DNA from: a virus
DNA: 20,032 nt
Reading direction: 5' to 3' (one strand)
Virus record (IMG/VR): IMGVR_UViG_3300040811_000227
Span: 1-20,032 of that record
In this document: positions 1-19,534 of the stretch, piece by piece
Numbering within the stretch: the first letter of the stretch is position 1
Layout: the number at the start of each line of letters is the position of its first letter
Program-made: the position numbers and the translations under genes
Notes under the pieces: model-generated
Database searches by the model: none
What the model was told of the DNA's origin: nothing
What the model saw: only the letters and a program-made list of their open reading frames with translations

Positions 1-474
1 GTTATCATCGCCATCAGCCATAATGAATATTTCTTTGTGCTTACCGTTAGCACTGTCTTCTTGTGCCCAAGTGCTTGAATATGTACTTGAGCAACTTCTA
101 CATTTAAAATTACAAATGTTGCTCCATCTAACATCAAAATGTCGAAGAGTCATTTCGGGATACGTACCGTCCTCTAGTGTGTGTTGTACTAGCGGAATTA
201 AATGTGCAAACTCTTTGTTTTTAGATATACGTGTGCTTTCGTTACCACTATCTTCTTGTTGATAACAAGCACGACAAGTGTCGCATTTTTTGCCTTCTAG
301 CATATTGCGTCTTAACTGTTTGTATCTATCGTTGTTCCATATTTCTTCAATTGTATTTTCTCTAACATTACCTAGATGTTTGTCATATTCACCAACACAG
401 CAAGGTAGAACACTACCGTCTGGATTGACATACATATGGATCCAAGGATAAATGCAAAACGATTTGTTATCCAT
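1..474 (-). CDS. Radical SAM protein, N-terminal part (cut by window edge)
   Basis: This is the first 158 residues of a radical SAM enzyme that continues beyond base 1. The core [4Fe-4S] motif CNFKCRSC gives Cys121, Cys125 and Cys128 (CxxxCxxC), which would bind the cluster that cleaves S-adenosylmethionine. Before it lie Cys7, a Cys25-Cys26 pair after an NPDG turn, and Cys64-xx-Cys67-xx-Cys70. This N-terminal layout (FCIYPWIHMYVNPDGSV, then CxxCxxC) is that of the phage twitch/SPASM-type radical SAM proteins and is shared in outline with the second radical SAM gene at 1380-2747. The ATG at 474 has a GGAG seven bases upstream and overlaps the stop of the SGNH-like gene by 8 bases, so it is the last visible gene of the operon. 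The substrate is unknown; the family includes peptide-modifying enzymes, but nothing here names a target. Confidence 0.88.
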   Translation of the reverse strand, partial: MDNKSFCIYPWIHMYVNPDGSVLPCCVGEYDKHLGNVRENTIEEIWNNDRYKQLRRNMLEGKKCDTCRACYQQEDSGNESTRISKNKEFAHLIPLVQHTLEDGTYPEMTLRHFDVRWSNICNFKCRSCSSTYSSTWAQEDSANGKHKEIFIMADGDDN

Positions 475-1393
475 TGTTCCACTCCGTATACAAATTTAAC
501 GCCCACAACGAATGTTGTGTATCGTTAGGATGAGGCTTATGTTGAGGACAGTTTCCTAAATAAGCATTAGACTGTGCAATCAAATCTAATTGATGAGATA
601 CATATCTAGAATTATATTTTATTTCCCTAAAATCTTTCATTATATGATCTAGCCAGCCTGCAACATAAAAGTCAGGCATTTCTAATTTAACTCCATTTAC
701 TTTAGCACTAAATTTTATCCAACTTTCGTCTACTTTTTTAAATGAATGTTTGTTAGTGTCTATAATTCTACAAAAGTTTTTCCATACAAGTGTTTTTACG
801 TTTGTATAAGGTTTTATTATTTCTTCGAGACAATTAAAAACAATTTTATCATATTTGTCTAACCATCTATCAAAAGATATACTTTTGCTTTTTAAAAATT
901 TTTTACTGTAAAGTTTTCCTATAGGATGTCTATATGCAGATAAGTCAGTTAGTTGTTGTAACTCTCTACTTGGCTCAGTAACCTGCATACACAAATAAAT
1001 GTTTTCATACTTTTCTTGTTCAACAATATATGGTAAAATACGCTCTAGTTCTTTTAGCATATACAAATTACTGTTGCCTGGGACAGCGTACTGATAAAAA
1101 TCAGTGTCCATTAATAGTGCAAGTTTAGGTCCGAATGTGTGTTTAAGTTGACTACATAAATCAAACTCGCCTGTTTCTGTAGCAATGTTTTCTAGGCCTT
1201 CGCCATATGCCCAACTTTCGCCGATGTTTAATAGCAAATCCTTTTTGCCTCTACGCATCCATATTTCAGTATTTTCTGCAGGTATTTTTATATGTACAGG
1301 TTTGAGATTATCATTACGTACTAAAATACTTTCAAAATTATTTAAGATACTGTGAGATGGATCTTTTCCTATATCTGTTTTATCCCAATCCAT
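467..1393 (-). CDS. SGNH/GDSL-hydrolase-like protein
   Basis: This is a 308-residue protein with the hallmarks of an SGNH-fold esterase or acyl-transfer enzyme. LLLNIGESWAYGEGL (Ser60) resembles block I (GDS), with Glu in place of Asp. YLCMQVTEPSREL resembles the core strand and loop often seen in such phage proteins. The C-terminal NDTQHSLWALNLY supplies a D291-xx-H294 pair like block V. A PGNSN segment near residue 105 may provide the oxyanion-hole Gly/Asn. If active, it would add or remove an acyl group, for example O-acetyl on a sugar, which fits its place between two radical SAM genes and downstream of glycosyltransferases. That role is inferred. The ATG at 1393 is preferred over an upstream TTG at 1405 because GAGGA lies five bases ahead of it. 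It overlaps the upstream gene by 14 bases. No signal peptide is visible, so action in the cytoplasm is likely. Confidence 0.6.
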   Translation of the reverse strand: MDWDKTDIGKDPSHSILNNFESILVRNDNLKPVHIKIPAENTEIWMRRGKKDLLLNIGESWAYGEGLENIATETGEFDLCSQLKHTFGPKLALLMDTDFYQYAVPGNSNLYMLKELERILPYIVEQEKYENIYLCMQVTEPSRELQQLTDLSAYRHPIGKLYSKKFLKSKSISFDRWLDKYDKIVFNCLEEIIKPYTNVKTLVWKNFCRIIDTNKHSFKKVDESWIKFSAKVNGVKLEMPDFYVAGWLDHIMKDFREIKYNSRYVSHQLDLIAQSNAYLGNCPQHKPHPNDTQHSLWALNLYTEWNNG

Positions 1394-2747
1394 TACAATC
1401 CTCAAAAAATTCTACTAGATCAGGAAACGTTTCTCTAAAGTCTACATTTCTTCTTCTGTCGTATTCTCTAAACCAAGCAGCAAAATCTCTGCGGCCTTCG
1501 TTTAGTTTTTGAGCAGTGTATTCTGTACTTGACATATAATCTACTACACGTCTAAACTTTTCGTATTCCATCTCGCTAAATTTAAATCTATCCTTATCAT
1601 CAAGATTATCTTTTATAAATTGCAAGTGCTTATGCATATAAGGCATAAAATCTTCCTTAGGAAGAATATTCATATCATACTGTAAAGGTTCTTTTAAGTA
1701 TGGTGTATCAAATCTTATACGTTGCCATTTTGTTTGAGAATCTGTGTTATATTTTTTACGCCATTCTAATATTTTTTCTAATAACTTATTAAAGTTTGTA
1801 ACAGTTAAAATATTAAATGTAACCATAAAAGTTAAAGGATGATTTGTTTTAGTCATATAGGTATCAAAGTTCTTTTCCCACAGTTCTAAATCTAATCCTG
1901 TACGAATGTACTCTGCTTGTTCGCCCCAAGTATCCATACTTGTAAAAACTTTAAAATCTTTAATGCAGCCTTTAGCAACAAGACTGTTTACTTTATCTGC
2001 AAAGCGTTCTATCAATATACTTTTAACACCAAAGTTACTGTTTATGTTTAATTCTAAATTAGGCATAGGGTTCTTTTCTAATTCGTCAAACATACGCCAA
2101 GTACTTTGTTGTAGTAACGGTTCTCCTCCTGTAATACGTAAAATTGTAAGTGTCTTACGTAGTTCAGGCCACCATTCCCAGAATGCTGTTACGTAAGGAT
2201 TATCTTCTTCTTTATGTATTTTAAACCAATCAATGTCATTGCGATGATTTTTAACCATTGTGTATGGTCCGTGATCACGTATTTCTTTATGATATGTACT
2301 ACTATGCTTAGGATGACAGTAACCACATTTAAAGTTACATTCGTTACCAAATGAAATTTCTACATACTGCGGATTAACATCAGCCATAGGGTCTGCTTTA
2401 ATTGCAGTAAATCTTTCTTCAGTATAGATACTAGCATTACGTTCTTTCCTGTCTGAAATATAGTCTTTGCCCATACATTCAATATTCCAACAGTACTGAC
2501 AACCGCTTGGCTTTTCACCATTAAGCATTTTTTGACGTTCTGCTTTCTTTTGAGGAGTATTATGTAGTTGACTTGGATTTTCTTTTAGTCCTTCTAATGG
2601 AATTTTATGAGGCGCAGGATGATAACAACTATGTGTTTCGCCTGTTTGTAAATAGATAGTGGTATGATGCCATTTAGCCATACAGAATGTAGGTGAAATC
2701 TCATCCATAATAGGAATAAATTTTTCTATTCTATCCTTGTCTTGCAT
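1380..2747 (-). CDS. Radical SAM protein (full length)
   Basis: This is a 455-residue radical SAM enzyme. GNECNFKCGYCHPKHSS gives the CxxxCxxC cluster ligands at about Cys137, Cys141 and Cys144. RITGGEPLLQ (about 205-214) is the GGEP strand that contacts S-adenosylmethionine. N-terminal to the core are a Cys-containing strand (CMAKWHHTTIYLQTGETHSC) and a GCQYCWNIECMG cluster (about 82-93), which mirror the pre-core cysteines of the partial gene at 1-474 and point to a second metal site or zinc. The C-terminal third has no cysteine-rich SPASM region: the only late cysteine visible is in the final ECCNGLG-like tail, read here as EDCNGLG. The ATG at 2747 is chosen over a TTG at 2750 because AAGGAG lies seven bases upstream. 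It overlaps the upstream glycosyltransferase by 17 bases. The substrate is unknown; a sugar or peptide modification would suit the operon. Confidence 0.92.
   Translation of the reverse strand: MQDKDRIEKFIPIMDEISPTFCMAKWHHTTIYLQTGETHSCYHPAPHKIPLEGLKENPSQLHNTPQKKAERQKMLNGEKPSGCQYCWNIECMGKDYISDRKERNASIYTEERFTAIKADPMADVNPQYVEISFGNECNFKCGYCHPKHSSTYHKEIRDHGPYTMVKNHRNDIDWFKIHKEEDNPYVTAFWEWWPELRKTLTILRITGGEPLLQQSTWRMFDELEKNPMPNLELNINSNFGVKSILIERFADKVNSLVAKGCIKDFKVFTSMDTWGEQAEYIRTGLDLELWEKNFDTYMTKTNHPLTFMVTFNILTVTNFNKLLEKILEWRKKYNTDSQTKWQRIRFDTPYLKEPLQYDMNILPKEDFMPYMHKHLQFIKDNLDDKDRFKFSEMEYEKFRRVVDYMSSTEYTAQKLNEGRRDFAAWFREYDRRRNVDFRETFPDLVEFFEDCNGLG
1399..1403 (-). promoter_or_regulatory. Ribosome binding site for the SGNH-like gene
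   Basis: GAGGA read on the minus strand lies five bases before the ATG at 1393. It decides the start against an in-frame TTG at 1405, which has no comparable site. It sits inside the end of the upstream radical SAM gene. Confidence 0.6.
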
Positions 2748-3786
2748 CAAACTGCTCCTTTAGCCATTTAAAATCATTTATCTTGCGAAGTGCATCAGGC
2801 TCAGCACTATTGCTAACACCATATTTCCTACCGGCTCTGGCGCCTTGAATAGCATAGTCCCCAAACGGTCTGTCTCTACCGTAATCACTACACCATTTAC
2901 TAAGTCTTTCATCTGTTTCATCATCTTTTTGACCTTTAATAGTTCTACTTGCTAACTTACAACATTCCCTAAAAGCACTTTTCCAGGTACTAAATGCATC
3001 TGTGTTAAATGCTGTAATGTTACTTACTTCTTCCATCGCTCTAAAACTGTCAGAAAGGCTTGTAGTCATATCTGGACTGTTTATATCCATATCAATTGTG
3101 AGTTGACGTGGAAATAATTTAACTCCGCCGTAGCCGTATTCTAAATCTGTTATAGGATTTCTACCTCTCCACACATAAACACTTTTTCTAGCATTAAAAT
3201 CGTAGTATGGTATTTGCATATCAAACTTAAAACTATCAACTATTTCTGCATCAGCGTCTACAATATAAAACAATTCAGTTGTACACTGCTTTGCTGCTTC
3301 TATGTGTGCTTGGTGTATACCCGTTACATCTTTAATCCATACAGCATTAGGAGACTTAGCAAGTAACTTGTTATAGTTTATTTCTGCATTTGCTTCGTGA
3401 TATGATATAAATGCAACATCAAATAATTTTGATTTACTTGCAACAATATCTATTTCTTTTTTGTTTGTGAAAAATCTATAATCCCATTCACGTTGTAATA
3501 TACGTGCAGACTTTGGAAAAATGCATACACCATCATAATAATTTCCGTTGCGGAAAACGTGTACATAATTTGCGTCCCATTCAGGAACTCTATAATCTAA
3601 ATTAAAATCATCGGCTAGTTCTAAATTGTCCCATACAACCCAAAAATGTTTTGTTAGACTTTTAGTTGCAACTTTCTCAAATGTTTTACAGTGTTCTATC
3701 TTCTGTGCATTAGGAAATCTCTGCTTGAACACTGTCCAACCATCGATATTACACTCACCATTGCTGACAAAAAAGATATCATACAT
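2731..3786 (-). CDS. Glycosyltransferase-like protein with duplicated GT-A domain
   Basis: This 351-residue protein is a paralogue of the next gene upstream (3779-4687). Residues 121-345 carry the family pattern: FDVAFISYHEANAEINY at the start, the nucleotide-sugar/metal motif VDADAEIVD (DAD 177-179), VYVWRGRN, GGVKLFPRQ, and a C-terminal AFREC plus AIQGARAG. Residues 1-110 look like a second, degenerate copy of the same N-terminal fold: YDIFFVSNGE, FPNAQKIEH, HFWVVWDN where the DxD should be, VHVFRNG and GVCIFPKS. That copy appears to have lost the DxD and is probably not catalytic. It may bind an acceptor or help pairing with its paralogue. The ATG at 3786 overlaps the previous stop by 8 bases and has no clear Shine-Dalgarno, so it is probably translated by re-initiation. 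The donor and acceptor cannot be read from the sequence. Confidence 0.75.
   Translation of the reverse strand: MYDIFFVSNGECNIDGWTVFKQRFPNAQKIEHCKTFEKVATKSLTKHFWVVWDNLELADDFNLDYRVPEWDANYVHVFRNGNYYDGVCIFPKSARILQREWDYRFFTNKKEIDIVASKSKLFDVAFISYHEANAEINYNKLLAKSPNAVWIKDVTGIHQAHIEAAKQCTTELFYIVDADAEIVDSFKFDMQIPYYDFNARKSVYVWRGRNPITDLEYGYGGVKLFPRQLTIDMDINSPDMTTSLSDSFRAMEEVSNITAFNTDAFSTWKSAFRECCKLASRTIKGQKDDETDERLSKWCSDYGRDRPFGDYAIQGARAGRKYGVSNSAEPDALRKINDFKWLKEQFDARQG
2755..2760 (-). promoter_or_regulatory. Ribosome binding site for the full radical SAM gene
   Basis: AAGGAG on the minus strand lies seven bases before the ATG at 2747, inside the end of the upstream coding sequence. It favours this ATG over the TTG one codon earlier. 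Confidence 0.65.
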
Positions 3787-4687
3787 ACTTTTGACTATAA
3801 TAGGTAGTACCTAATCTAATAGTTTCCTCGTATAATGCCATTACGTATCTACTTTCTTGCGGATCCAATGTTGGCCAATCTAATCCTAAATTGGTTCTTA
3901 TCTCGTTACCTAACCATTTAGTTTTATCAACCAAACCAATTTCATCTGTTTCGTATTGCTTACATTGTTCATTATAAAGATCACGTAGTGATTCAAAATC
4001 TCTAACTTGAATATGATCCCAGTCAGTACAGTTTGTAAGATATGTTCCTAATCTTGCACCATAAATGGCCCATAAGCCATTATCAATATGAGAACCAACT
4101 GTACTCCATATCCTTAATCTATGCAAGTTGTGCCACCATATACGCTCTTCGATCTCCATAGGCGGAACTTGTAATCCGCCATCTAACGTCATCTTAACTC
4201 CTTCACGGAATCCCGCTCGCCAAGCCATAAAAGGAGTTTCATTGATAATTGTATCACTATATGTAACTGGAAAGTTTCTATAACCTTCTTCCCAGCAAAA
4301 ATCTACTTGTGCTCTTTCACTATCTGCATTTTCGTGTGTTTTCATATCAAGGATATGCTGGCGATGCCATAACTTTAAGCCACCATTTCCGTAACGCAAC
4401 CCATTAACATTATTTCTGCCGCACCAACTATATGCACGGATTTTTTCATTTGTCATATCTAAATCTAAATCAAAAAACTTAGGATCAACAATGTTGTCTG
4501 CATCTACAGTTAGTACCCAATCTGTTTCTGCTGCTTCTGCTGCTGCTTTGTGTGCGTGGTCTGATCCTTTTACACCGTGTATACGTTGCGCCCAAGGAAC
4601 TTTATTACAAAGGTCGGCATAGTGTAAATCAGCATTTGGCTCATCATAACTTAAAAAGAAAACATCAAATTCTACTACTTTTGTCAT
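3779..4687 (-). CDS. GT-A-type glycosyltransferase
   Basis: This 302-residue protein has the GT-A pattern: FDVFFLSYDEPNADLHY at residues 7-23, VPWAQRIHGVKG, an AAAEAA helix, then LTVDADNIVDP with the DAD metal/nucleotide-sugar motif at 62-64. These are followed by AYSWCGRN, a GGLKLWHRQ turn, and a C-terminal AWRAGFREG and YGARLG region shared with the gene at 2731-3786. It is the single-domain member of that pair and so probably the ancestral form. GAGGA stands three bases before the ATG at 4687, which overlaps the upstream stop as ATGA. Glycosyl transfer is inferred from fold motifs. Similar proteins are common in marine T4-like phages, where they are usually annotated only as putative glycosyltransferases. 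Confidence 0.78.
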   Translation of the reverse strand: MTKVVEFDVFFLSYDEPNADLHYADLCNKVPWAQRIHGVKGSDHAHKAAAEAAETDWVLTVDADNIVDPKFFDLDLDMTNEKIRAYSWCGRNNVNGLRYGNGGLKLWHRQHILDMKTHENADSERAQVDFCWEEGYRNFPVTYSDTIINETPFMAWRAGFREGVKMTLDGGLQVPPMEIEERIWWHNLHRLRIWSTVGSHIDNGLWAIYGARLGTYLTNCTDWDHIQVRDFESLRDLYNEQCKQYETDEIGLVDKTKWLGNEIRTNLGLDWPTLDPQESRYVMALYEETIRLGTTYYSQKYV

Positions 4688-5328
4688 ACTTCCTCGAATA
4701 CATAATTTTTAAAAAGTCTGCGTGTAAACACACTAGCATCATCTGGACATTCGCAAGTAAATTCAAATGCTTTACCTACTATATCATCTAGTTTAACACT
4801 AGCGGTATAGTAACTTGTGTGTGGATCATTATATTCACATATATCAAAACTTAAAATAGTTTCACCGTCCCAAAATATTTTTCTTTTTGCTACTGGTTCA
4901 TCTCTGTTTAATTTATATGTACCACCAAACTTTTCTGATAGTTGAACTGTAAATTTATCACCTTTTCGTGATACAATAACATCAGGTTCGTCTATATCCG
5001 CCCACTTAATATCTATTACTCTATGTAGTACGTCATCAATTTTAAAAAGATTTTGTACTTCAGTAATCTCTAAACTTCCTGATTGTACATCAATAAAACA
5101 TTTACTTAAAGGAACTTCACCTTCTAATATTGCAAGTGCATTTTCTTTATCAATTTCTATAGTATTTTTAAAACGAGTTGTGTCAATAGAGTAATCAGGA
5201 CCTACACAAAGTACCTGACCTGATTCTTTGTCAAAGGCTGCAAGATATGTAATAACTGGTGGTTTCCAGTTCGCAGCCCATTCATCAAAATCTGGGAGGT
5301 CAGGAATTTCTCTTATCTTTTCTTCCAC
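4684..5328 (-). CDS. Hypothetical protein, 214 residues
   Basis: I do not recognise this protein. It is predicted to be largely beta-stranded and acidic, with no signal peptide or membrane segment. The N-terminal part (PPVITYLAAFDKESGQVLCVGPD) reads like a small barrel or sandwich strand pair, and later segments (GTYKLNRDEPVAKRKIFWDG) also suggest beta hairpins. A Cys pair near the C-terminus (FTCECPDD) is the only notable cysteine feature. The start is GTG at 5328 with GGAGG seven bases upstream. It overlaps the preceding gene by 16 bases and the following one by 4. It sits exactly between the two glycosyltransferase pairs, so it may be an acceptor, a scaffold or a structural protein decorated by them. 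That is speculation from position alone. Confidence 0.75.
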   Translation of the reverse strand: MEEKIREIPDLPDFDEWAANWKPPVITYLAAFDKESGQVLCVGPDYSIDTTRFKNTIEIDKENALAILEGEVPLSKCFIDVQSGSLEITEVQNLFKIDDVLHRVIDIKWADIDEPDVIVSRKGDKFTVQLSEKFGGTYKLNRDEPVAKRKIFWDGETILSFDICEYNDPHTSYYTASVKLDDIVGKAFEFTCECPDDASVFTRRLFKNYVFEEV

Positions 5329-6158
5329 GCTATTTCCTCCAATATGTTAATTGTTTCTAATGTAATTTTATCCTTTTCCACATAATGTAAAATATCAGTT
5401 TGTTGGAAATTTCCTATTTTAACTTTTGCATTTCTATCAAAATAAAACCCTACGTGATCAGATACTGTGTCTGCTGGATAAGGCCAATTTTGTATCATAC
5501 CTTTCATATGTACAACACGCGGAAACTCTAAAGGGTATGCAATATCATCAGCAACATCTAAAATTTTTGCTGCTAGTGCAAATGCTTCGTCTGTTCCTAC
5601 AACTTTAGGTTTTTTATTAACTAAAAATTCATTAGAATATCTGTCTGGATTTTTAATAATTTCTCTTTGTAGGTTAAAGAAATCTTTTGCTAATGTACTA
5701 TTTTTAACAAAAAATGTGTAAAAGGAATATAAGTTAGGTAAATCGTTGGCTGTAAAACATTTTCTGTAATGATCATCAGTAACTAGTTCGCCTCTATATG
5801 TGTATGCATTGTTAGCAACATATAGTTCACTGTTGTTGATAAAATACTCTGCCCAATGGCTGTAATCTCTAAAAAACAGCATATCTGCATCTAAGCATAC
5901 AGTATTTTCAAAAGGTGTTAGTGTATCCATATAGGATCTACTATCCCAACCTTCTGGACCTTTCCATTCAATTACGTGATCAAACACCCAGGTCGAAGTG
6001 AAGTTTTCAATATGATCCTTATTGTCTATTACTAGTGCAACTTTGTCATACCCTTCTTTTTGTGTATTCTTGATGCTTAATGCTAATGCATATGCAAGAC
6101 GTGTGTAATTTGTGTCAGCACCTTCATTAACAATAATTAAATATCCAAAGTCAATCAT
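5313..6158 (-). CDS. GT-A glycosyltransferase, GT8-like
   Basis: This is a 281-residue cytoplasmic protein with a GT-A fold pattern. It starts with a strand (YLIIVNEG), then TRLAYALALSIKNT, an ALVID strand, and LTPFENTVCLDADMLFF with the DAD motif at 90-92 that would hold Mn2+ and the nucleotide sugar. GTDEAFALAAKIL resembles the acceptor/donor-side acidic helix of GT8-like enzymes, and PRVVHMKG gives a late His that could be a metal ligand. It is a paralogue of the next gene upstream (6155-7006), sharing the TPF/Y-x-x-T-x-x-x-D-x-D block and the late A-F-A-x-A helix. GGAG lies five bases before the ATG at 6158, whose ATGA overlaps the preceding stop. The sugar and acceptor are unknown. Confidence 0.75.
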   Translation of the reverse strand: MIDFGYLIIVNEGADTNYTRLAYALALSIKNTQKEGYDKVALVIDNKDHIENFTSTWVFDHVIEWKGPEGWDSRSYMDTLTPFENTVCLDADMLFFRDYSHWAEYFINNSELYVANNAYTYRGELVTDDHYRKCFTANDLPNLYSFYTFFVKNSTLAKDFFNLQREIIKNPDRYSNEFLVNKKPKVVGTDEAFALAAKILDVADDIAYPLEFPRVVHMKGMIQNWPYPADTVSDHVGFYFDRNAKVKIGNFQQTDILHYVEKDKITLETINILEEIAWKKR

Positions 6159-7006
6159 ATTAACTCCATTAGTTGATTAATATTTCTTGTAATAGATTGT
6201 TTATTCATAATATGAATATCTCTACCTTTAATATTACACAAAGTATAATCATTTAAATTTGCAGTTAGTAGTTTGATACCGTTTGCATCGACTTCATAAA
6301 TCATATCTTTATCTGGCACTGAAAGTACAGGCGGCATTGCATAATCATCATCTGTTTCAAATCCATACATAATATGTCTAGCGATAGCAAATGAAATATC
6401 ATTTCTATACATTCTGCTATCAAATCTATAAAGGTCTGCAAACTTTTTGTAATTGTCTTTAATATGTTTTACTAGATCAAAAAATACTTTTGTATTTTCG
6501 TTTTTTGTAAACATAACTGTTGTTGCCCATAAAAGTTTTACACCTGTTTCGCTAATATACTTGTCTAAGTATCCTACTCTACTTCCTTGAACATCGTTAT
6601 ATTCTGGAGAGATGAGCAAGTCTGCATCAATATTCCAATATTCATTTAGAGAATCACTAAAAACAAAATAATCGCAATCTATCATTAGTGTTCTATCATA
6701 AGGTGTAAGATCCCAAACACTGGATCTATTACTATTTTTAAATGGAGCAACTACACTTTCTTTTCCGTCATTAAATTTTCTTTGTTGTGTATCTTCGGGT
6801 CTGTCAACTGTAATAATATTTTCAAAAACTTCGAGTGCTTTTTTCCATAGATCAGATTTGTGCATCCAATCAACAGTTGATTGATCTGTAACTAAACTAA
6901 CAGGAACCTGTAGATGTTTTTTAGCAAGGCCACCGGATACAATAGCCATCTTAGCATAATCTATCTGCCTGTTATTGTGTGCAAATATTAATATGCCTTT
7001 TTTCAC
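6155..7006 (-). CDS. GT-A glycosyltransferase-like protein
   Basis: This 283-residue protein is related to the gene at 5313-6158. It has an N-terminal strand GILIFAHNN, then VPVSLVTDQSTVDWM, and LTPYDRTLMIDCDYFVF with a DCD motif at 110-112 in the DxD position. DISFAIARHIMYG matches the TDEAFALAAKIL helix of its paralogue, and a late His occurs in IHIMNKQ. No membrane segment or signal peptide is seen. The start is GTG at 7006, whose GTGA overlaps the stop of the small upstream gene by 4 bases. No strong Shine-Dalgarno precedes it, so coupled translation is likely. The role in glycan assembly is inferred from motifs and operon position. Confidence 0.68.
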   Translation of the reverse strand: MKKGILIFAHNNRQIDYAKMAIVSGGLAKKHLQVPVSLVTDQSTVDWMHKSDLWKKALEVFENIITVDRPEDTQQRKFNDGKESVVAPFKNSNRSSVWDLTPYDRTLMIDCDYFVFSDSLNEYWNIDADLLISPEYNDVQGSRVGYLDKYISETGVKLLWATTVMFTKNENTKVFFDLVKHIKDNYKKFADLYRFDSRMYRNDISFAIARHIMYGFETDDDYAMPPVLSVPDKDMIYEVDANGIKLLTANLNDYTLCNIKGRDIHIMNKQSITRNINQLMELI

Positions 7007-7350
7007 GATACTAGTGTCTCTACTGATCTACTTTTTTTAATTTTTGTATATTCTTCGTGATATTCAAATGTTGCTGTGAAATATCTATCAAAAATTTCAT
7101 CTCTAAATTCTTCCAACTTTTCTACTAAAATTGGATTTTCATTTGTATCTAGTATTACTACATTTTCTGTTCTATCTTTATTGATAAGCATTTCTACAAA
7201 GTTTAATAGATTTCTATCAATTTTAAAAATACCACCATTCTTACCATATGTAAGTCTAGCGTCAATCTTTTCTTTTAGGGTTTTGCGCTGAACAGAAAGT
7301 GTTTGACGATACTTGGAAAATTCCAAAGCATCTTTATATTCATTTTGCAT
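7003..7350 (-). CDS. Small conserved-type hypothetical protein, first gene of operon
   Basis: This 115-residue protein is rich in Lys and Glu and probably mostly helical (KYRQTLSVQRKTLKEKID, then LVEKLEEFRDEIFDRYF), with one short strand VVILDTNENPI. I do not recognise a family. It is the first gene after the late promoter at 7377-7384: the ATG at 7350 has AAAGGAG five bases upstream and lies 26 bases from the promoter element. Its stop overlaps the GTG of the first glycosyltransferase, so it belongs to that operon. It could be a small partner or regulator of the modifying enzymes. There is no sequence evidence for any specific function. Confidence 0.75.
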   Translation of the reverse strand: MQNEYKDALEFSKYRQTLSVQRKTLKEKIDARLTYGKNGGIFKIDRNLLNFVEMLINKDRTENVVILDTNENPILVEKLEEFRDEIFDRYFTATFEYHEEYTKIKKSRSVETLVS

Positions 7351-7376
7351 AATAACTCCTTTATAATGTACGCATA

Positions 7377-7384
7377 TATTTATT
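7377..7384 (-). promoter_or_regulatory. Late promoter (NATAAATA) for the modification operon
   Basis: AATAAATA on the minus strand matches the late-promoter element NATAAATA described for T4-like cyanophages (T4 itself uses TATAAATA), which is read by host polymerase with a phage sigma factor and sliding clamp. It sits in the 74-base gap before the ATG at 7350, 26 bases away. It is the only such element left of 11200, so it probably drives all genes down to base 1. Confidence 0.72.
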
Positions 7385-7424: not shown

Positions 7425-8468
7425 TTAGCCTATTTCTATAATAGAACCAATGTTTACAATAGGTGTAGCAATGTTGAAACTTCCTGCTCCGCCTGGTTGT
7501 AGTGTTCCTGTTGCTTCTGTAGTTTGAACGCTTACAGAAACTTGTCCATCTACTACGTCAGGACCAAAACCACCATCACCTGGATTCGATGGTCCAACTA
7601 CAGGCGGACCGCCTTGCTCCTCGTGATCATCAATCAGCTCTATTCTAATTTCAATAGTATCAGCACCTGTTAGATGTGGATTTGCTTGGTTAGGAGTTCT
7701 AGCAAAAATTCTGTATCTGTTTAGTGAATAAGGACTTGATCCTACTACATCAACATAAGGATCTTGGAAAGTACTTGTGCATTTATAAAAGTTACTACCA
7801 TTAAATGTAGGACCTGCTCCAGTACCTGGATGATTTCCGCTAAACTTTTGTGTTCCTGCTGCATTTAAAATACTAGTCCAAGAAGCATTCTGGTTAGTAG
7901 ACAGTCCTCCGGATCGTGTTGTAGTGATATCAATACTGCTACCGCTGTTAAAAAAGTGTCTACTTTCGTCTAGATCGCTAAACAACACGAAAATTGTACA
8001 GGTAAGTGAATCACTCCAGTTATCACCGTAAGTTGGATCTGGCCAAGTTCTTTGTACTGTCCCGTGATTTACTGTTCGTCTTTGGCCTGCAACTGCTAGG
8101 TTTCTAGCATTTGCGTAGATATCATTTACAAATGCTGCCCATTTATCAACTGGCTGTGAAGGTCCACCTGACGCTGGTGCTTGGTATTTAATTTTTTTAC
8201 GTTCAGTAACTTCAAGCATACTAACTTCATTTGAACCACTTGGAAGTGCGTTATTTAAATGTGTGTATGCATTCCAAATGTCATATCTTAAATCAGAATA
8301 CTGTTGTACAGTAACTCTATCACTTGTGCTTACCTGCGAACTTAATACAGGCTGACCATATCCTAGCCAGCCAAAACCATCAGACTTACCGTCACCTAAG
8401 ACACGCTGTATCTTAAGTTGCATATCATTATAATAATCTGGGTCTATAAGTTCGTGTGTTGCTGGCAT
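7425..8468 (-). CDS. Putative virion structural protein (paralogue of 8489-9397)
   Basis: This 347-residue protein shares its architecture with the gene immediately upstream: a helical N-terminus (DYYNDMQLKIQRVLG) followed by GYGQPVLSSQV; an LRYDIWNAYTHLN segment; a central block FFNSGSSIDITTTRSGG (about 172-188) followed by SWTSILNAAGTQKFSG; and a C-terminal tail with VSVSVQTTEATGTLQPGG. The paired C-terminal half looks beta-rich with low-complexity Gly/Pro linkers (about 290-305), which is typical of virion proteins. The position directly after the fibre gene also points to a tail or fibre component. The ATG at 8468 has GAGGT five bases upstream. A CGTAAATA one mismatch from the late element lies 17 bases before it. 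No enzymatic motif is seen. Confidence 0.72.
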   Translation of the reverse strand: MPATHELIDPDYYNDMQLKIQRVLGDGKSDGFGWLGYGQPVLSSQVSTSDRVTVQQYSDLRYDIWNAYTHLNNALPSGSNEVSMLEVTERKKIKYQAPASGGPSQPVDKWAAFVNDIYANARNLAVAGQRRTVNHGTVQRTWPDPTYGDNWSDSLTCTIFVLFSDLDESRHFFNSGSSIDITTTRSGGLSTNQNASWTSILNAAGTQKFSGNHPGTGAGPTFNGSNFYKCTSTFQDPYVDVVGSSPYSLNRYRIFARTPNQANPHLTGADTIEIRIELIDDHEEQGGPPVVGPSNPGDGGFGPDVVDGQVSVSVQTTEATGTLQPGGAGSFNIATPIVNIGSIIEIG

Positions 8469-8488: not shown

Positions 8489-9397
8489 TTACGTCGCTGT
8501 AATGTTAGACATACTAAAAGTTGGCGATGTAATGGCAAACGGGTCTAAGTCAGGTTGCAATGACCCTGTTGCTTTGATCTCTTCTGCAACTATTGATAAT
8601 GTGCCATTTACAACGTCATCTGGTAGCGGTCCTGGTTGTGGATCGTCAGTGTAATTATCTATTAATTCTACTTTTATTGTAAAAACTGTTGCAACTCCAG
8701 TTGCGTTATCTGGCTGATTACATTTTGCAGACAGCCTATATGTATTTGCTGAGTATGGTGTTGATGAATCTGTTTCGTGATATACTTGGTACGAGTCGGT
8801 TAAATTATAAACATTTAGATCATCCTGTGCTGCTGCTCCAAATTCTTGTTCGCCTGCTGTAGTTAAAGTATTAGTCCAAGAATTATTTTGCTGTGATGAA
8901 TCACCGCCTGTTCTAGTAGTAGTGATTTTAATTTTTCCACCACTGTTCCAAAAATATCTTGCTTGATTAGCATTAGTAAAAGTTGCTTCTACTTCTGTTA
9001 CAGCATTGCTGCTCCAATCCGATGTAAAAGTTTTTGTAGCAATGTTACTAATCACAGACTGACTGGTTGCTACTACAAATCTATCACGTCTCGCTGCTTG
9101 AATTAAATTTGTATAACTTTGAAATGGTTCTGATGCTGTAGCAAGAATAGGATTTGTAATTTGTGCTAGTACAGGATTTGGTAATACTCCTGTTTGATGA
9201 ATAAGTATGCTCATCAAATCAAATCTTAATTTATCAAATTCTGTTTTTTCAATTCGTTGTCCTTGAGTAACAGTTTGAGAAATAATAGTTTGACCGTACC
9301 CGTACTGACCTGCTCCAGTTCCTAACGTTGTTGTGATTAGAGAACTTAGATCATTAAAATCTGCTGCAAGTATTTGATTTCCGGATGATACAGGCAT
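8489..9397 (-). CDS. Putative virion structural protein (paralogue of 7425-8468)
   Basis: This is a 302-residue protein. It begins ILAADFNDLSSLI and continues with YGYGQTIISQTV (about 32-43) and FDKLRFDLMSILIHQ, each matching the neighbouring paralogue. The central block YFWNSGGKIKITTTRTGG (about 148-165) and SWTNTLTTAGEQEFG align closely with the sister protein, as does the tail motif KATGSLQP. It lacks the Gly/Pro-rich insert of the sister protein. Its ATG at 9397 overlaps the fibre gene's stop by one base (TAATG), so the two are translationally coupled, which supports a role in the same virion substructure. The family name is not recognised and the structural role is inferred from context and composition. 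Confidence 0.74.
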   Translation of the reverse strand: MPVSSGNQILAADFNDLSSLITTTLGTGAGQYGYGQTIISQTVTQGQRIEKTEFDKLRFDLMSILIHQTGVLPNPVLAQITNPILATASEPFQSYTNLIQAARRDRFVVATSQSVISNIATKTFTSDWSSNAVTEVEATFTNANQARYFWNSGGKIKITTTRTGGDSSQQNNSWTNTLTTAGEQEFGAAAQDDLNVYNLTDSYQVYHETDSSTPYSANTYRLSAKCNQPDNATGVATVFTIKVELIDNYTDDPQPGPLPDDVVNGTLSIVAEEIKATGSLQPDLDPFAITSPTFSMSNITAT

Positions 9398-11178
9398 TAA
9401 AGAACCACCGCTTCTACATAATCAACACCATCTGTCGATGCTTCTAGTGCAATGGCAAATACATCTGCATTGGCTTTTGAAACTGCTCTTGCAGTTCCAT
9501 CTGCTGATGCAATAAGTCTGCTGCCTTTTGCAACACTGCCTGAAATTTTTACTGGTACTCTACCTTTCAGTGCAATATACTGTCCGCCATCTAAAATAGT
9601 ATTCATCATAAAAGCGGGGCTTTCTGATATAACACCTAATGCTCTGTCACCTTCTTGACACTTTGTAACTTCGGCTGAACCGCCTACTGCTACTACTGTG
9701 CCGACTTCATATTCTTCGTCAGTTAAATATTTTTCTGCTAAGTCAGCATAACGTGCTGCTGTTGCAGTTCCTTGGAATAAGTTTGCAAGTATATTTCCTG
9801 ATCCGTCTCTAGCAGCAATTGTATTTGCTGTTGCTGTTGTTTTTGCTGTTTTGTAAGTTGGATCTGAATCTACAGCAGTATCGTCAATTTTAATTCTATC
9901 TGCTTTTGTTGCTTCGCCTTCGAATTTAGTTGCATACAACTTACCAGACGCATCTCTAACTGGGATACTTGTACCTGATCCTGGAACACTTGTTGAAGGT
10001 TGAATACTGTTTAATGCACTTGCGTTTGTTGCAGTACCTGTAAGCGAACCTTGAACGTTACCAATTAATGTACCTTGTACATTTGCACCAGGATAACCAA
10101 TCTGCTTAGTTGCAGAATTAACCATAATTGCATTACTGCCATCAGTACTAATAACATTACCACTAACATTTCCTGTAACGTTTCCTGTAACGTTTCCTGT
10201 TAAGTTACCAAATGTTTCAACAATATAGGCTTGTTGCCATTTATTAGATGCCCTACCTAGATCAAAAATATTGTCTTCACCTGGGAATATTCCATCTACA
10301 TTAATATTAGCAACATTTCTATTTGTAAGTCCGTCTTCAACAATTCTAAAGTTGATTGGATTACCTAATTGCGAAGTAACTCTAATTTCATTTTCATTTT
10401 CAATGTGTACTTTAAGATCACTTTGGTCACCAACCTTAAAGCCATCATCTAAAAATGATATAAGGTTTTCAAACGTAACGTTATCGCCCCTTAAAAATTC
10501 TGATGCTTGAATAAACGACCCGTCAATAACTAAACCTAGTGCAGAACTACTTGTTCCCCAGTAATAATGATTTGATGATGTAATACCATCGTTGTTAGTA
10601 TTAACAAGTGTTAATCCTTTCTTGACTAAAGTAAACCCATCAATTGGATTTACAGAAGTATTAAGTGTAAATTCTGTTTGCGATACAATCGCCATTACTT
10701 TACCGCCAGCAGTAATTCTTAAAATGCTGTGGTTAGTATTACCTGTGTCTTTAACTACCTGCGCAGTAACACCTGAACTACCTAAGTCTGGTGATGCTTC
10801 AGGTCCTACTAGAATAAACTCCGCACCTGACCAAGCATATAACTGTTTTGCAGATGAGTCCCACCAAAGGTCACCTTGTGCAAGTCCGGATGGTGCAGTT
10901 GAACTTACTTCTGCTCCGCCTGCTGCTTTCCATTTATCACCATCGTAAAACTTTAATCTAGCATTTGCACTATCAAACCATACTTGACCTTTAACTGCTT
11001 TAGGAGGTTGTGTAGTATTTGCAAAATTTTCAAGTAGATGAAGGAAGTTTTCGTTCTGAACTTCACCGTATCCAGCATAGTTTTTACCTACGAATCTCAA
11101 ATCCGTGGTAGTGTCAATTGTACCGTCTTCTACGGAAGTTAAAAACTGTCCATTAAATTTATCTACTGCGTAAGCCAT
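9397..11178 (-). CDS. Tail fibre-like protein with C-terminal conserved domain
   Basis: This is a 593-residue fibre-type protein. Residues 1-126 are the module shared by four proteins here: GYGE 36-39, ENFLHLLENF 43-52, GQVWFD 64-69, GDLWWD 102-107 and LVGP 123-126. A beta-rich shaft follows, with IFDLGRASNKWQQAYIVETF, a run of five TGNV-type tetrapeptides (see the repeat at 10153-10212) and ARDGSGNILANLFQGT. The last 120 residues or so (from ARYADLAEKYL near 474) form a compact domain with EVGTVVAVGG, DRALGVISESPAFMMN, GGQYIALKGRVPVKI and KGSRLIAS. This ending recurs on marine T4-like fibres and recalls the Peptidase_G2-like intramolecular chaperone fold, but I cannot confirm autocleavage. 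The ATG at 11178 has AGGA eight bases upstream and a late promoter 22 bases upstream. Confidence 0.85.
   Translation of the reverse strand: MAYAVDKFNGQFLTSVEDGTIDTTTDLRFVGKNYAGYGEVQNENFLHLLENFANTTQPPKAVKGQVWFDSANARLKFYDGDKWKAAGGAEVSSTAPSGLAQGDLWWDSSAKQLYAWSGAEFILVGPEASPDLGSSGVTAQVVKDTGNTNHSILRITAGGKVMAIVSQTEFTLNTSVNPIDGFTLVKKGLTLVNTNNDGITSSNHYYWGTSSSALGLVIDGSFIQASEFLRGDNVTFENLISFLDDGFKVGDQSDLKVHIENENEIRVTSQLGNPINFRIVEDGLTNRNVANINVDGIFPGEDNIFDLGRASNKWQQAYIVETFGNLTGNVTGNVTGNVSGNVISTDGSNAIMVNSATKQIGYPGANVQGTLIGNVQGSLTGTATNASALNSIQPSTSVPGSGTSIPVRDASGKLYATKFEGEATKADRIKIDDTAVDSDPTYKTAKTTATANTIAARDGSGNILANLFQGTATAARYADLAEKYLTDEEYEVGTVVAVGGSAEVTKCQEGDRALGVISESPAFMMNTILDGGQYIALKGRVPVKISGSVAKGSRLIASADGTARAVSKANADVFAIALEASTDGVDYVEAVVL
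10153..10212 (-). repeat. Five tandem 12-base repeats coding TGNV units
   Basis: There are five consecutive 12-base units; the plus-strand form is aacgtttcctgt, exact twice, with three diverged neighbours. They encode the fibre run GNLTGNVTGNVTGNVSGNV within the shaft of the gene at 9397-11178. Such in-frame arrays can expand or contract by slippage and so change fibre length. Confidence 0.85.
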
Positions 11179-11200
11179 TTTGTTTTTCCTAGTTCACTTG

Positions 11201-11208
11201 TATTTATC
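11201..11208 (-). promoter_or_regulatory. Late promoter (NATAAATA) before fibre gene 9397-11178
   Basis: GATAAATA on the minus strand lies in the 34-base gap between the stop of the 154-residue gene and the ATG at 11178, 22 bases from the start. It matches the marine T4-like late element in sequence and spacing. Confidence 0.72.
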
Positions 11209-11212
11209 GTTT

Positions 11213-11677
11213 CTACTTCATCAGCATCAGGCATACCCAGTTGCTTTGAGTAGTACTTGTACTTACGGAATGTATATCTGTAAGTGAAAATTCTATTCCT
11301 TGCCCTCTATTAACCGTAATTGTTGCTCCATCTACATATATGCTACTATTATCAGTTAAACTATATGCTACAATTGTACCTGCTGCTGTAGCATTTTGCC
11401 AGGTATTCATTGTATCTAATCTTCCTGTATTAGCAGGAAATGTTAAAAAATATCCTATTACTGCTTTATCAATATCTTCAGAAGCAAAACAAGATTTAAA
11501 AGTTGATCTCTGAGTTCTATCCCAAGTTTTCCACTTTGATACTTCATATTTGCTTAGATTACCATAATTATTTGCACCTAGTCTAATACTATTAGACACA
11601 AAGTCAACATTAGATCTTAATGTATCAAGTGCTGTTAAGTTTTCTGTGCTCAATGCTGTTTTATTAATATGTGCCAT
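11213..11677 (-). CDS. Hypothetical protein, 154 residues, fibre-cluster associated
   Basis: I do not recognise a named family. The N-terminal half is polar and probably helical (NLTALDTLRSNVDFVSNSI, then YEVSKWKTWDRTQRSTF). The C-terminal half looks beta-stranded with small residues (GTIVAYSLTDNSSIYVDG, TITVNRGQGIEFSL) and ends in a hydrophobic strand SNWVCLMLMK. The second half resembles the beta sandwiches found at the tips of virion proteins. The ATG at 11677 has a GTAGGT-like site and lies five bases after the oxygenase stop, so it is in the same transcript as the oxygenase and the acidic unknown. It may be the substrate or partner of that oxygenase, or a small fibre accessory. Neither is shown by the sequence. 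Confidence 0.7.
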   Translation of the reverse strand: MAHINKTALSTENLTALDTLRSNVDFVSNSIRLGANNYGNLSKYEVSKWKTWDRTQRSTFKSCFASEDIDKAVIGYFLTFPANTGRLDTMNTWQNATAAGTIVAYSLTDNSSIYVDGATITVNRGQGIEFSLTDIHSVSTSTTQSNWVCLMLMK

Positions 11678-11682
11678 AATAC

Positions 11683-12156
11683 CTACTCGTAAAGATATAC
11701 CAATGAATATCTTTTATTGTTAACCGGTGATACACTATGCACCGGACCTATTCCATTTATACAAATTCCTTGCCCAATAGAATCCTTAACGAATGAATTA
11801 TCTTCATCAATAAGTACTCCATCATCACTATCTTGTAATGCAATTACTAAATTTTTTCTATAGTAATCAAAATCTCTATGCTTACCTAAATAATCACCTA
11901 CGTTATATCTATTAATTGCAACCTCTGCAAGTCTATGTTCGTCAAAATGAGGAGCAATTGATTTTAAAAAGTCAACAACGTGTGTTGGCATTTGTCTATG
12001 TCCACAAAAATCATAAGAGCAAGAAGACTCTTCAATTTGTCTAGGTGGAGTAAGTTGTGAACGTCTGATCCATCTCGGATCTTCTAGACTCTCGGCAACT
12101 TCTCTAGCCTTGATTGCTGTATCTTTATCCAAGTAATTAGATATCTCGTATGTCAT
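11683..12156 (-). CDS. 2-oxoglutarate/Fe(II)-dependent oxygenase
   Basis: This 157-residue protein is of the prolyl-4-hydroxylase-like 2OG-Fe(II) family, which hydroxylates substrates using O2 and 2-oxoglutarate. INRYNVGDYLGKHRDFD contains the iron ligands His93 and Asp95 (HxD). GPVHSVSPVNNKRYSLVYLY contains the third ligand His140 and Arg149, which would bind the 2OG carboxylate. The catalytic core is complete. The ATG at 12156 is chosen because AGGAG lies seven bases upstream and the first 48 codons of the longer frame (from 12300) overlap the previous gene and look like shadow sequence. It overlaps the upstream gene by 20 bases. Such enzymes are frequent in marine T4-like phages, with unproven targets. 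The location among fibre genes suggests a virion protein or chaperone as substrate, which is inference. Confidence 0.9.
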   Translation of the reverse strand: MTYEISNYLDKDTAIKAREVAESLEDPRWIRRSQLTPPRQIEESSCSYDFCGHRQMPTHVVDFLKSIAPHFDEHRLAEVAINRYNVGDYLGKHRDFDYYRKNLVIALQDSDDGVLIDEDNSFVKDSIGQGICINGIGPVHSVSPVNNKRYSLVYLYE

Positions 12157-12643
12157 CACCATACTCCTGAATAGCACCTTCATATTTCTCAGCAATCTCT
12201 GATTCAATATCTTCCGTAGTTTTGTATTCAACTTGTGGATTATTTCTAAAGTACTCTTTTCTAATACCATTAGCACGTCTAACTTCAGTAATAAAGTCAT
12301 TCATTTCTTTTAAATCTTCTGCTTCAATTCCTGCATTGTCTGCTAGTCTTTCAATTGCAGATCCTAAAATACTTAATTGATCTTCTAATGGATACTTGTC
12401 TGTAATTCTGTTTCTTGCAAGTGTGTTTAATGCATCTTCTGTCATTAAAGGTGTTGCATTTACATCATAAATTTCATAGTTGTCATAGTCGCCTCTAACA
12501 TTTTCATTTTCGAGATCTATTTCAACTTCTCTATAAAGATATAAATCATTATTCAGTAGTGAAACATCATCAACCATTCCAAGAACAGTTGTAAACTTTC
12601 TGTTTAATTTATTAAATTGTGCTAGTGCTGTTTCTCTATTCAT
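12137..12643 (-). CDS. Acidic hypothetical protein, 168 residues
   Basis: This acidic, mostly helical protein has many Glu, Asp and Asn residues (VEIDLENENVRGDYDNYEI; LNTLARNRITDKYPLEDQL; AGIEAEDLKEMNDFITEVR) and no cysteine or membrane segment. The size, acidity and place beside fibre genes would suit a tail-fibre assembly protein or chaperone, but no family motif is visible and this is only a suggestion. The ATG at 12643 lies eight bases past the fibre stop, with a weak, distant AGGA. A late-promoter element ends only five bases before the ATG, so the message from it may be leaderless. Its 3' end overlaps the oxygenase by 20 bases. Confidence 0.75.
   Translation of the reverse strand: MNRETALAQFNKLNRKFTTVLGMVDDVSLLNNDLYLYREVEIDLENENVRGDYDNYEIYDVNATPLMTEDALNTLARNRITDKYPLEDQLSILGSAIERLADNAGIEAEDLKEMNDFITEVRRANGIRKEYFRNNPQVEYKTTEDIESEIAEKYEGAIQEYGDDIRDI
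12164..12168 (-). promoter_or_regulatory. Ribosome binding site fixing the oxygenase start
   Basis: AGGAG on the minus strand lies seven bases before the ATG at 12156, within the last codons of the upstream gene. It supports the 157-residue form over a 205-residue reading from 12300. A second ATG at 12162 would be too close to it. Confidence 0.7.
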
Positions 12644-12648
12644 ACCAA

Positions 12649-12656
12649 TATTTATC
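12649..12656 (-). promoter_or_regulatory. Late promoter-like element overlapping a fibre stop codon
   Basis: GATAAATA on the minus strand includes the TAA stop of the fibre gene at 12652-14811 and ends five bases before the ATG at 12643. T4-type late transcription starts about six bases downstream of the element, which would place the 5' end at or near the start codon. The sequence match is exact, but the geometry is unusual. Confidence 0.5.
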
Positions 12657-14811: not shown

Positions 14812-14829
14812 CTATCGCTCCTAATCTCC

Positions 14830-16701: not shown

Positions 16702-16717
16702 CTAGTCTCTCTACCTA

Positions 16718-19526: not shown

Positions 19527-19534
19527 TATTTATT
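19527..19534 (-). promoter_or_regulatory. Late promoter (NATAAATA) overlapping a stop codon
   Basis: AATAAATA on the minus strand contains the TAA stop of the structural gene at 19530-20032 and lies 25 bases before the ATG at 19501. It probably drives the fibre cluster that follows. Confidence 0.65.

Follow-up and report, generated by a model that had tools for sequence, protein, structure and literature searches.

An overlapping gene cassette in a viral contig

We analysed a cassette of predicted glycosyltransferase (GT) and radical S-adenosylmethionine (SAM) genes at positions 1–7,384 of the virus record IMGVR_UViG_3300040811_000227; the window is the whole stretch of 20,032 bases. Nine genes, g1–g9, all lie on the minus strand and are chained by overlaps of 4, 4, 16, 4, 8, 17, 14 and 8 bases, with GTG starts at g2 and g4, exactly as an earlier sequence-only reading had listed them. 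The operon's first gene, g1 (7003..7350, 115 aa), encodes a small protein predicted to be helical. It is followed by g2 (6155..7006, 283 aa), which encodes a GT8-like putative glycosyltransferase with a DxD motif at D110/D112, by its GT-like paralogue g3 (5313..6158, 281 aa; DxD at D90/D92), and by g4 (4684..5328, 214 aa). Then come g5 (3779..4687, 302 aa), a predicted GT-A glycosyltransferase with a VDADN motif, its paralogue g6 (2731..3786, 351 aa), which carries an extra N-terminal domain, and g7 (1380..2747, 455 aa), a predicted N-terminal twitch (N-twitch) radical SAM enzyme. The block closes with g8 (467..1393, 308 aa), SGNH-like by motif, and g9 (1..474), a second predicted N-twitch radical SAM protein.

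The sequence-only reading had described a nine-gene cassette. Nine frames are indeed present in the window, but the contig end at base 1 cuts the operon within g9, and relatives continue with several further overlapping genes past the equivalent position, so the natural block is not nine genes long. The core consists of g1–g7; g8, g9 and the genes beyond them vary, and g8 and g9 are facultative. Neither Rfam families nor tRNAs were found in the window, and no membrane segment was found in any protein of the block; the single hydrophobic stretch that was seen falls in one relative of g6, within its long start, which is probably over-called.

Conservation of the cassette and of its late promoter element

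About 300 loci were gathered from viral and genome collections and examined by profile searches. The loci are not independent, because in several cases one and the same phage is represented by more than one overlapping or near-identical contig; duplicate removal left 98 of the first 147 loci and, in the larger set, 89 distinct regions upstream of g1. Many more copies exist in the collection: for g7 alone, 499 matched stretches encode a relative. Of the viral loci with enough length to hold it, essentially all had the order g1-g2-g3-g4-g5-g6-g7 (more than 250 loci), and short contigs showed sub-strings of the same order; a gene order not conserved in any relative, which the sequence-only reading had named as a refuting outcome, was thus not observed. 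It is kept while identity drops to about 35–45% for several of the genes. The overlaps are kept as well: the 4-base overlap of g2 and g3 occurs in 60 of 68 relatives, that of g4 and g5 in 62 of 70, and g3 and g4 overlap in every relative compared. Between the window and its closest relative (L004), the ratio of nonsynonymous to synonymous substitution rates was 0.04–0.13 for all eight complete genes. The arrangement of the cassette is not due to chance. Searches of INPHARED with g1, g3, g5 and g8 gave no match, and the search with g7 returned distant Vibrio phage proteins only. An unrelated, well-known role for each enzyme did not come up, since the majority of the proteins matched no family.

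A T4-type late element, AATAAATA (7377..7384, minus strand), lies upstream of the g1 start and agrees with the T4 sequence TATAAATA at 7 of 8 positions. It is the sole copy in the first 7.4 kb, ATAAATA being absent from both strands of positions 1–7376; the other coding-strand copies in the window lie at 19533, 12655 and 11207. In the relatives, 70 of the 89 distinct 70-base regions upstream of g1 contained ATAAATA, against 7 expected, mostly at −32 to −38. This late element is the strongest single signal that the cassette did not arise by chance. Inside the block, 507,783 bases of relatives held one copy on the coding strand and five on the opposite strand, whereas 20 anagram heptamers occurred 22–531 times on the coding strand and 97–314 times on the other strand of the same bases. 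The lowest coding-strand count, 22, was that of TAAATAA, whose scarcity may be owed in part to its stop codons; the contrast with the remaining anagrams is still large. Stray late promoters therefore seem to be avoided within the block, apparently by selection. The element is common in the fibre region upstream, with 88 copies in 333,300 bases. The claim of a single element with none inside the block thus holds for the window, and the relatives together add one internal copy on the coding strand.

A homologue of the gp55-type sigma factor was found in 8 of 10 long relatives (38–43% identity), and the sigma query matched T4 gp55 itself (PDB 7d7c) with E 5e-5. The relatives' protein is a homologue of the product of an Atu_ph07 gene that adjoins a recombination nuclease. 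The authors of the Atu_ph07 genome described a gene similar to a late-transcription sigma factor (PMC6102473), and by position we assign this locus to their 'gp694'. Both components of a T4-type late promoter, an element near the start and a gp55-type sigma factor in the phage, were therefore found. With these two as its support, late transcription of the cassette, as the sequence-only reading had proposed, is probable.

Fibre genes and the phages that carry the cassette

In essentially all relatives the cassette follows immediately after fibre genes, with a median gap of 62 bases between the last fibre gene and g1. In the window three fibre-type genes precede it on the minus strand: u1 (7425..8468), directly upstream of g1 and variable in length and sequence in relatives; u2 (8489..9397), related to u1; and u3 (9397..11178), which has parts in common with structural genes of jumbo T4-like phages and is itself preceded by the late element in 55 of 58 loci. 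The fibre gene ahead of the core ranges from about 300 to 877 residues among relatives, and the core is constant. An N-terminal module, MAYxINKxDG..., is shared by u3, u6, u7 and u8 (window 9397-18856), and these proteins may attach through one common domain.

The cassette belongs to a widespread, uncultivated clade of large phages of the T4 superfamily. One relative lies on a contig of 353 kb. Gp23 is present in long relatives, and the Gp23 of one of them is 67–72% identical to those of jumbo phages such as Phosso, Vibrio phage 2.275.O, CBB, GAP32 and PA5oct. No cultured member of the clade was found.

Two pairs of predicted glycosyltransferases

The four candidate transferases are two paralogous pairs. 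In hhalign comparisons g2 matched g3 (98%, E 2e-14) and g5 matched g6 (100%, E 5e-44); the two pairs gave no profile match to each other. The DxD motif is conserved in g2 and g3, and the residues D110/D112 of g2, D62/D64 of g5 and D177/D179 of g6 are invariant columns. Glyco_transf_8 was matched by 2 of 34 g2 members at E ~0.01, and glycogenin weakly at E 0.09; g3 on its own had no Glyco_transf_8, Pfam or PDB match. A profile search of PDB with g5 returned nothing convincing. The structure model of g5 (predicted local distance difference test, pLDDT, 89) has a GT-A fold, and its best solved Foldseek match is the capsid glycosyltransferase of PBCV-1 (E 1.5e-5, template modelling score 0.3–0.4). 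The best VIA match is B4GALNT1 (Z 11.6, root-mean-square deviation (rmsd) 3.0, 141 residues aligned). A GT of mycobacteriophage Che8 was among the viral fold matches, and the S-glycosyltransferases ThuS and SunS were among the fold matches as well. Fold and DxD motif together support g5 as a GT-A glycosyltransferase, and g6 is predicted to be one by homology to g5. The sequence-only reading had named four DxD enzymes of the GT-A type: the g5 model and the pair homologies speak for this, but the GT8 likeness of g2 is weak, and the duplication into pairs had been missed.

Phage GTs are known to glycosylate DNA (see also PMC12619734), and the cassette enzymes could in principle serve DNA hypermodification. 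We consider this very improbable: the genes stand under a late element and behind fibre genes rather than replication genes, and neither the block nor the genes after it include a recognised base-modifying gene.

Radical SAM proteins and the variable tail

Both radical SAM proteins of the sequence-only reading were recovered. g7 matched NF033640 (N_Twi_rSAM) with E 6e-97 and 325 bits, against a curated cut-off of 170, and its CxxxCxxC cysteines (138/142/145) and the cysteines of its N-terminal domain are conserved in 30 of 30 sequences. The partial g9 has a SPASM match (E 2e-18) followed by CxxxCxxC, and matched NF033640 with E 2e-49 and 168.7 bits over the 145 positions present; a full-length orthologue (L006:12277-13461) has SPASM and Radical_SAM matches. 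g7 and g9 are thus firmly predicted to be N-twitch radical SAM proteins. In long records as many as nine matches to N-twitch radical SAM proteins were counted, of which several are weak or lie outside the cassette. g8, present in some relatives only, gave no family or profile match; its G62-E-S64-W, N111/N113 (GNxN) and C-terminal His 298 are conserved in all 14 g8 proteins. The earlier assignment of g8 to the SGNH proteins is therefore backed by motifs but not by a profile, and we regard the protein as SGNH-like by motif.

Past g9, relatives carry on the same strand two copies of a family F2, an SGNH-like protein F8, whose assignment depends on its first residues, and a UDP-glucose/GDP-mannose dehydrogenase. 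In an alternative tail the genes encode an epimerase, a protein with a weak match to methyltransferases and a radical SAM protein of the B12 type. The variable tail ends at a convergent block. F2 proteins are about 400 aa long, are repeated downstream in most relatives (for example L006:13461-14699 and 15468-16625) and had no convincing Pfam or NCBIfam match. The sequence-only reading was silent on nucleotide-sugar enzymes, which relatives do carry after the cassette. Because the variable tail holds such sugar genes, we take the core to belong to a glycan pathway.

The proteins g1 and g4

The block had been described as a cassette of enzymes, and this suits most of its members, but no test applied identified g1 or g4 as an enzyme. 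Profile searches of PDB with either protein gave nothing convincing. g4 is fast-evolving, being replaced or strongly diverged in distant relatives, and had no convincing match. The AlphaFold model of g1 (pLDDT 88) has a helical fold, which matched an unnamed phage protein in BFVD (E 3e-6) and then many DUF4376 models (E ~0.01, probability ~1.0); g1 has no Pfam or sequence match to DUF4376 and no invariant cysteine. A likeness to prefoldin (Z 7.5, rmsd 4.3, 98 residues aligned) was rejected as being in the chance range for helical proteins. The DUF4376 likeness at E ~0.01 is a lead from the model. Some DUF4376 proteins are tail-fibre chaperones, such as those of the Alteromonas phages V22 and A5 (PMC7289586, PMC10579305), which g1 may resemble in fold, as well as in its place right after the fibre genes; g1 differs in lacking a sequence match and in being followed by enzymes. 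g1 may likewise assist fibre folding.

Cassettes in cultured jumbo phages and gene copies in bacteria

Two cultured phages, Phosso, which grows on Sinorhizobium meliloti, and Atu_ph07, which grows on Agrobacterium C58, also have a u3-related gene followed by a cassette with several radical SAM genes. It resembles the marine cassette in its site and in having several radical SAM genes, and differs in that no GT was recognised in it, in that its radical SAM proteins are distant (weak match to the g9 profile, E 4e-8), and in that it has a tailed protein of its own. Profile searches with one of its radical SAM proteins gave PapB (E 8e-12), DynA and HxsB as the best matches, all far below cut-off. 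The gene of the tailed protein, which we read from its sequence as structural-type, adjoins that radical SAM gene; the protein ends in DYCHTSCHASCHSSRSRR in Phosso (L307:15679-16599, PV764938) and in DFCHSSCHASCHNSRSRR in Atu_ph07 (L308:16449-17339, MF403008). The tail CHxSCHxSCHxSRSRR is conserved though the two proteins are just 38% identical elsewhere, and within our collection only these two phages have the protein. The Phosso protein is unrelated to u1 and u2 by profile. In its appearance the tail resembles a modification site, and its presence beside radical SAM genes makes the protein a candidate virion protein modified by radical SAM enzymes at this location; by analogy, this suggests that radical SAM genes behind u3 act on virion proteins. 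Since both phages are cultured and carry their cassette at the same place, a bench test is possible.

These observations bear on a RiPP-type reading (ribosomally synthesized and post-translationally modified peptides), in which a radical SAM enzyme would mature or cross-link a peptide or fibre segment and GTs would add sugars, as in glycocins. Twitch/SPASM-type enzymes often modify peptides, the g9 cluster domain gave weak scores against sactipeptide and other maturases, ThuS and SunS are among the fold matches of g5, and at the same site in the cultured phages, SPASM-like radical SAM genes stand beside the gene for the CHxS-repeat tail. The marine loci, however, have no small cysteine-rich or repeat-tailed precursor; the tail CHxSCHxSCH was searched for and is absent from them, and their sole small protein, g1, has a well-predicted helical fold with no invariant cysteine. 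We consider this reading improbable.

In another cultured phage, Vibrio phage K566 (L309:7863-12265), three N-twitch-type radical SAM genes are interleaved with a gene that is GT8-like by eye. We considered whether the relatives from metagenome-assembled genomes were bacterial copies. Most of them (L277-L281, L284, L286, L289, L299 and L302) keep g1-g2-g3, and L277, the one read, also has fibre genes; these look like phage contigs binned with bacteria. The g5 copies of Bdellovibrionia and of roseobacters look chromosomal. In a Bdellovibrionia metagenome-assembled genome (G021), g5, g6 and a radical SAM gene form a triplet on a contig of 493 kb (L285:8001-11165); this genome also has 33 matches to N-twitch radical SAM proteins, many of which lie within a single stretch of 30 kb. 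The roseobacters (L287, L288 and L291-L293; Ruegeria, Tateyamaria and Cribrihabitans) have a lone g5 homologue, preceded in L287 and L292 by a gene judged by eye to be GT4-like.

Candidate function of the cassette

Our proposal, with about an even chance of being right, is that the cassette products form a late pathway in the cytosol, by which virion fibres are glycosylated and chemically tailored. The operon behind the fibre genes would be read from one T4-type promoter, of which the element is seen in the sequence, and would yield g1, the transferase pairs g2/g3 and g5/g6, g4 and the N-twitch radical SAM protein g7, with g8 and g9 as a variable tail. Their site of action would be the cytoplasm, at the time when virions are assembled. 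A fibre or another virion protein would receive a short sugar chain from the transferases, and either the sugar or the peptide would be tailored by the enzymes of the radical SAM and SGNH types; the order of these steps is conjectural. The fibre-adjacent site, the late element and its avoidance inside the block, the sigma factor, the kept overlaps, the constancy of the core beside varying fibre ends, the fold of g5, the lack of membrane segments, the nucleotide-sugar genes and the radical SAM cassette at the same site in two cultured jumbo phages all argue for this proposal. A constant core with varying fibres would fit a decoration shared by unlike fibres; it would also fit a target away from the fibre tip.

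Several observations weigh against fibre tailoring. A search for excess co-evolution between u1 or u2 and the genes of the cassette showed none; the likeness between the marine and Phosso cassettes is positional and weak in sequence, with no GT shared; lone or paired g5-type genes stand in bacterial neighbourhoods of glycan type; and soluble GTs with sugar-nucleotide enzymes would equally suit remodelling of the host envelope. In that alternative, the main rival, the cassette would act late in infection on a glycan of the host surface, namely the core or O-chain of the lipopolysaccharide, for example against the sticking of released virions or competitors to debris or infected cells. The authors of the pelagimyophage study suggest such a role for a GT-rich host recognition cluster (PMC7029224), and the GT8 likeness of g2, the dehydrogenase and epimerase genes after the cassette in relatives, and the chromosomal g5 relatives beside glycan-type genes would all agree with it. 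The core, however, encodes no flippase, polymerase or other membrane protein; it is tied to fibre genes and a late element, whereas remodelling of a living host would usually be useful earlier; and its GT set is constant despite widely differing fibre tips. We hold envelope remodelling to be somewhat unlikely. With no membrane segments and no flippase or polymerase recognised in the core, we lean towards a protein acceptor; lipopolysaccharide-core enzymes are also soluble.

Within the fibre-tailoring proposal, a more specific and rather unlikely version is that the radical SAM proteins and the paired GTs jointly build a carbon-tailored glycan or a glyco-peptide cross-link on the fibres. If true, this would be a new class of post-translational modification of virions, with parallel radical SAM cassettes in cultured jumbo phages.

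Relation to known systems

The literature searched contained no description of a conserved late operon of this kind and no laboratory work on it, and nothing in it linked radical SAM enzymes to phage fibres or to RiPP-type modification. GT and radical SAM genes of marine phages have already been reported; it is the fixed-order, late, fibre-adjacent operon that is undescribed in that literature.

A close likeness is to pelagimyophages, in which GT genes, UDP-sugar enzymes and radical SAM cassettes lie beside the fibres in a hypervariable host recognition cluster and have been read as modifying the O-chain (PMC7029224). These too are T4-like marine phages with such genes near the tail fibres. 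Their cluster is hypervariable and nonsyntenic, whereas the cassette has a fixed order of seven genes and one late element, and the Gp23 of the cassette clade is nearest to jumbo phages. The Moraphages, large aquatic phages with predicted Bacteroidota hosts, have four GT orthogroups in their core genome (PMC12619734). They are like the cassette phages in size, habitat and core GTs; they differ in that radical SAM genes go unmentioned in that paper.

Another T4-like marine genome, TARA_ERS488813_N000010, has 12 radical SAM genes (PMC5332604). It shares with the cassette phages its marine origin, T4-like character and richness in radical SAM genes; in the part of that source we draw on, these genes are treated as Fe-S metabolism and no fibre-adjacent operon is linked to them. 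Glycosylation of virions by phage GTs has been described in mycobacteriophages (Freeman et al. 2023, as reported in PMC12619734). There, too, phage GTs act on virion proteins, and the Che8 GT appeared among the g5 fold matches; by sequence the family is a different one. To our knowledge, virion glycosylation in mycobacteriophages has no radical SAM partner. Many of the GT and radical SAM genes found in marine phages are unexplained and are usually listed as auxiliary metabolic genes. For the cassette described here, the fixed core operon, the late element and the linkage to fibres argue for a role in the infectious particle over one in host metabolism.

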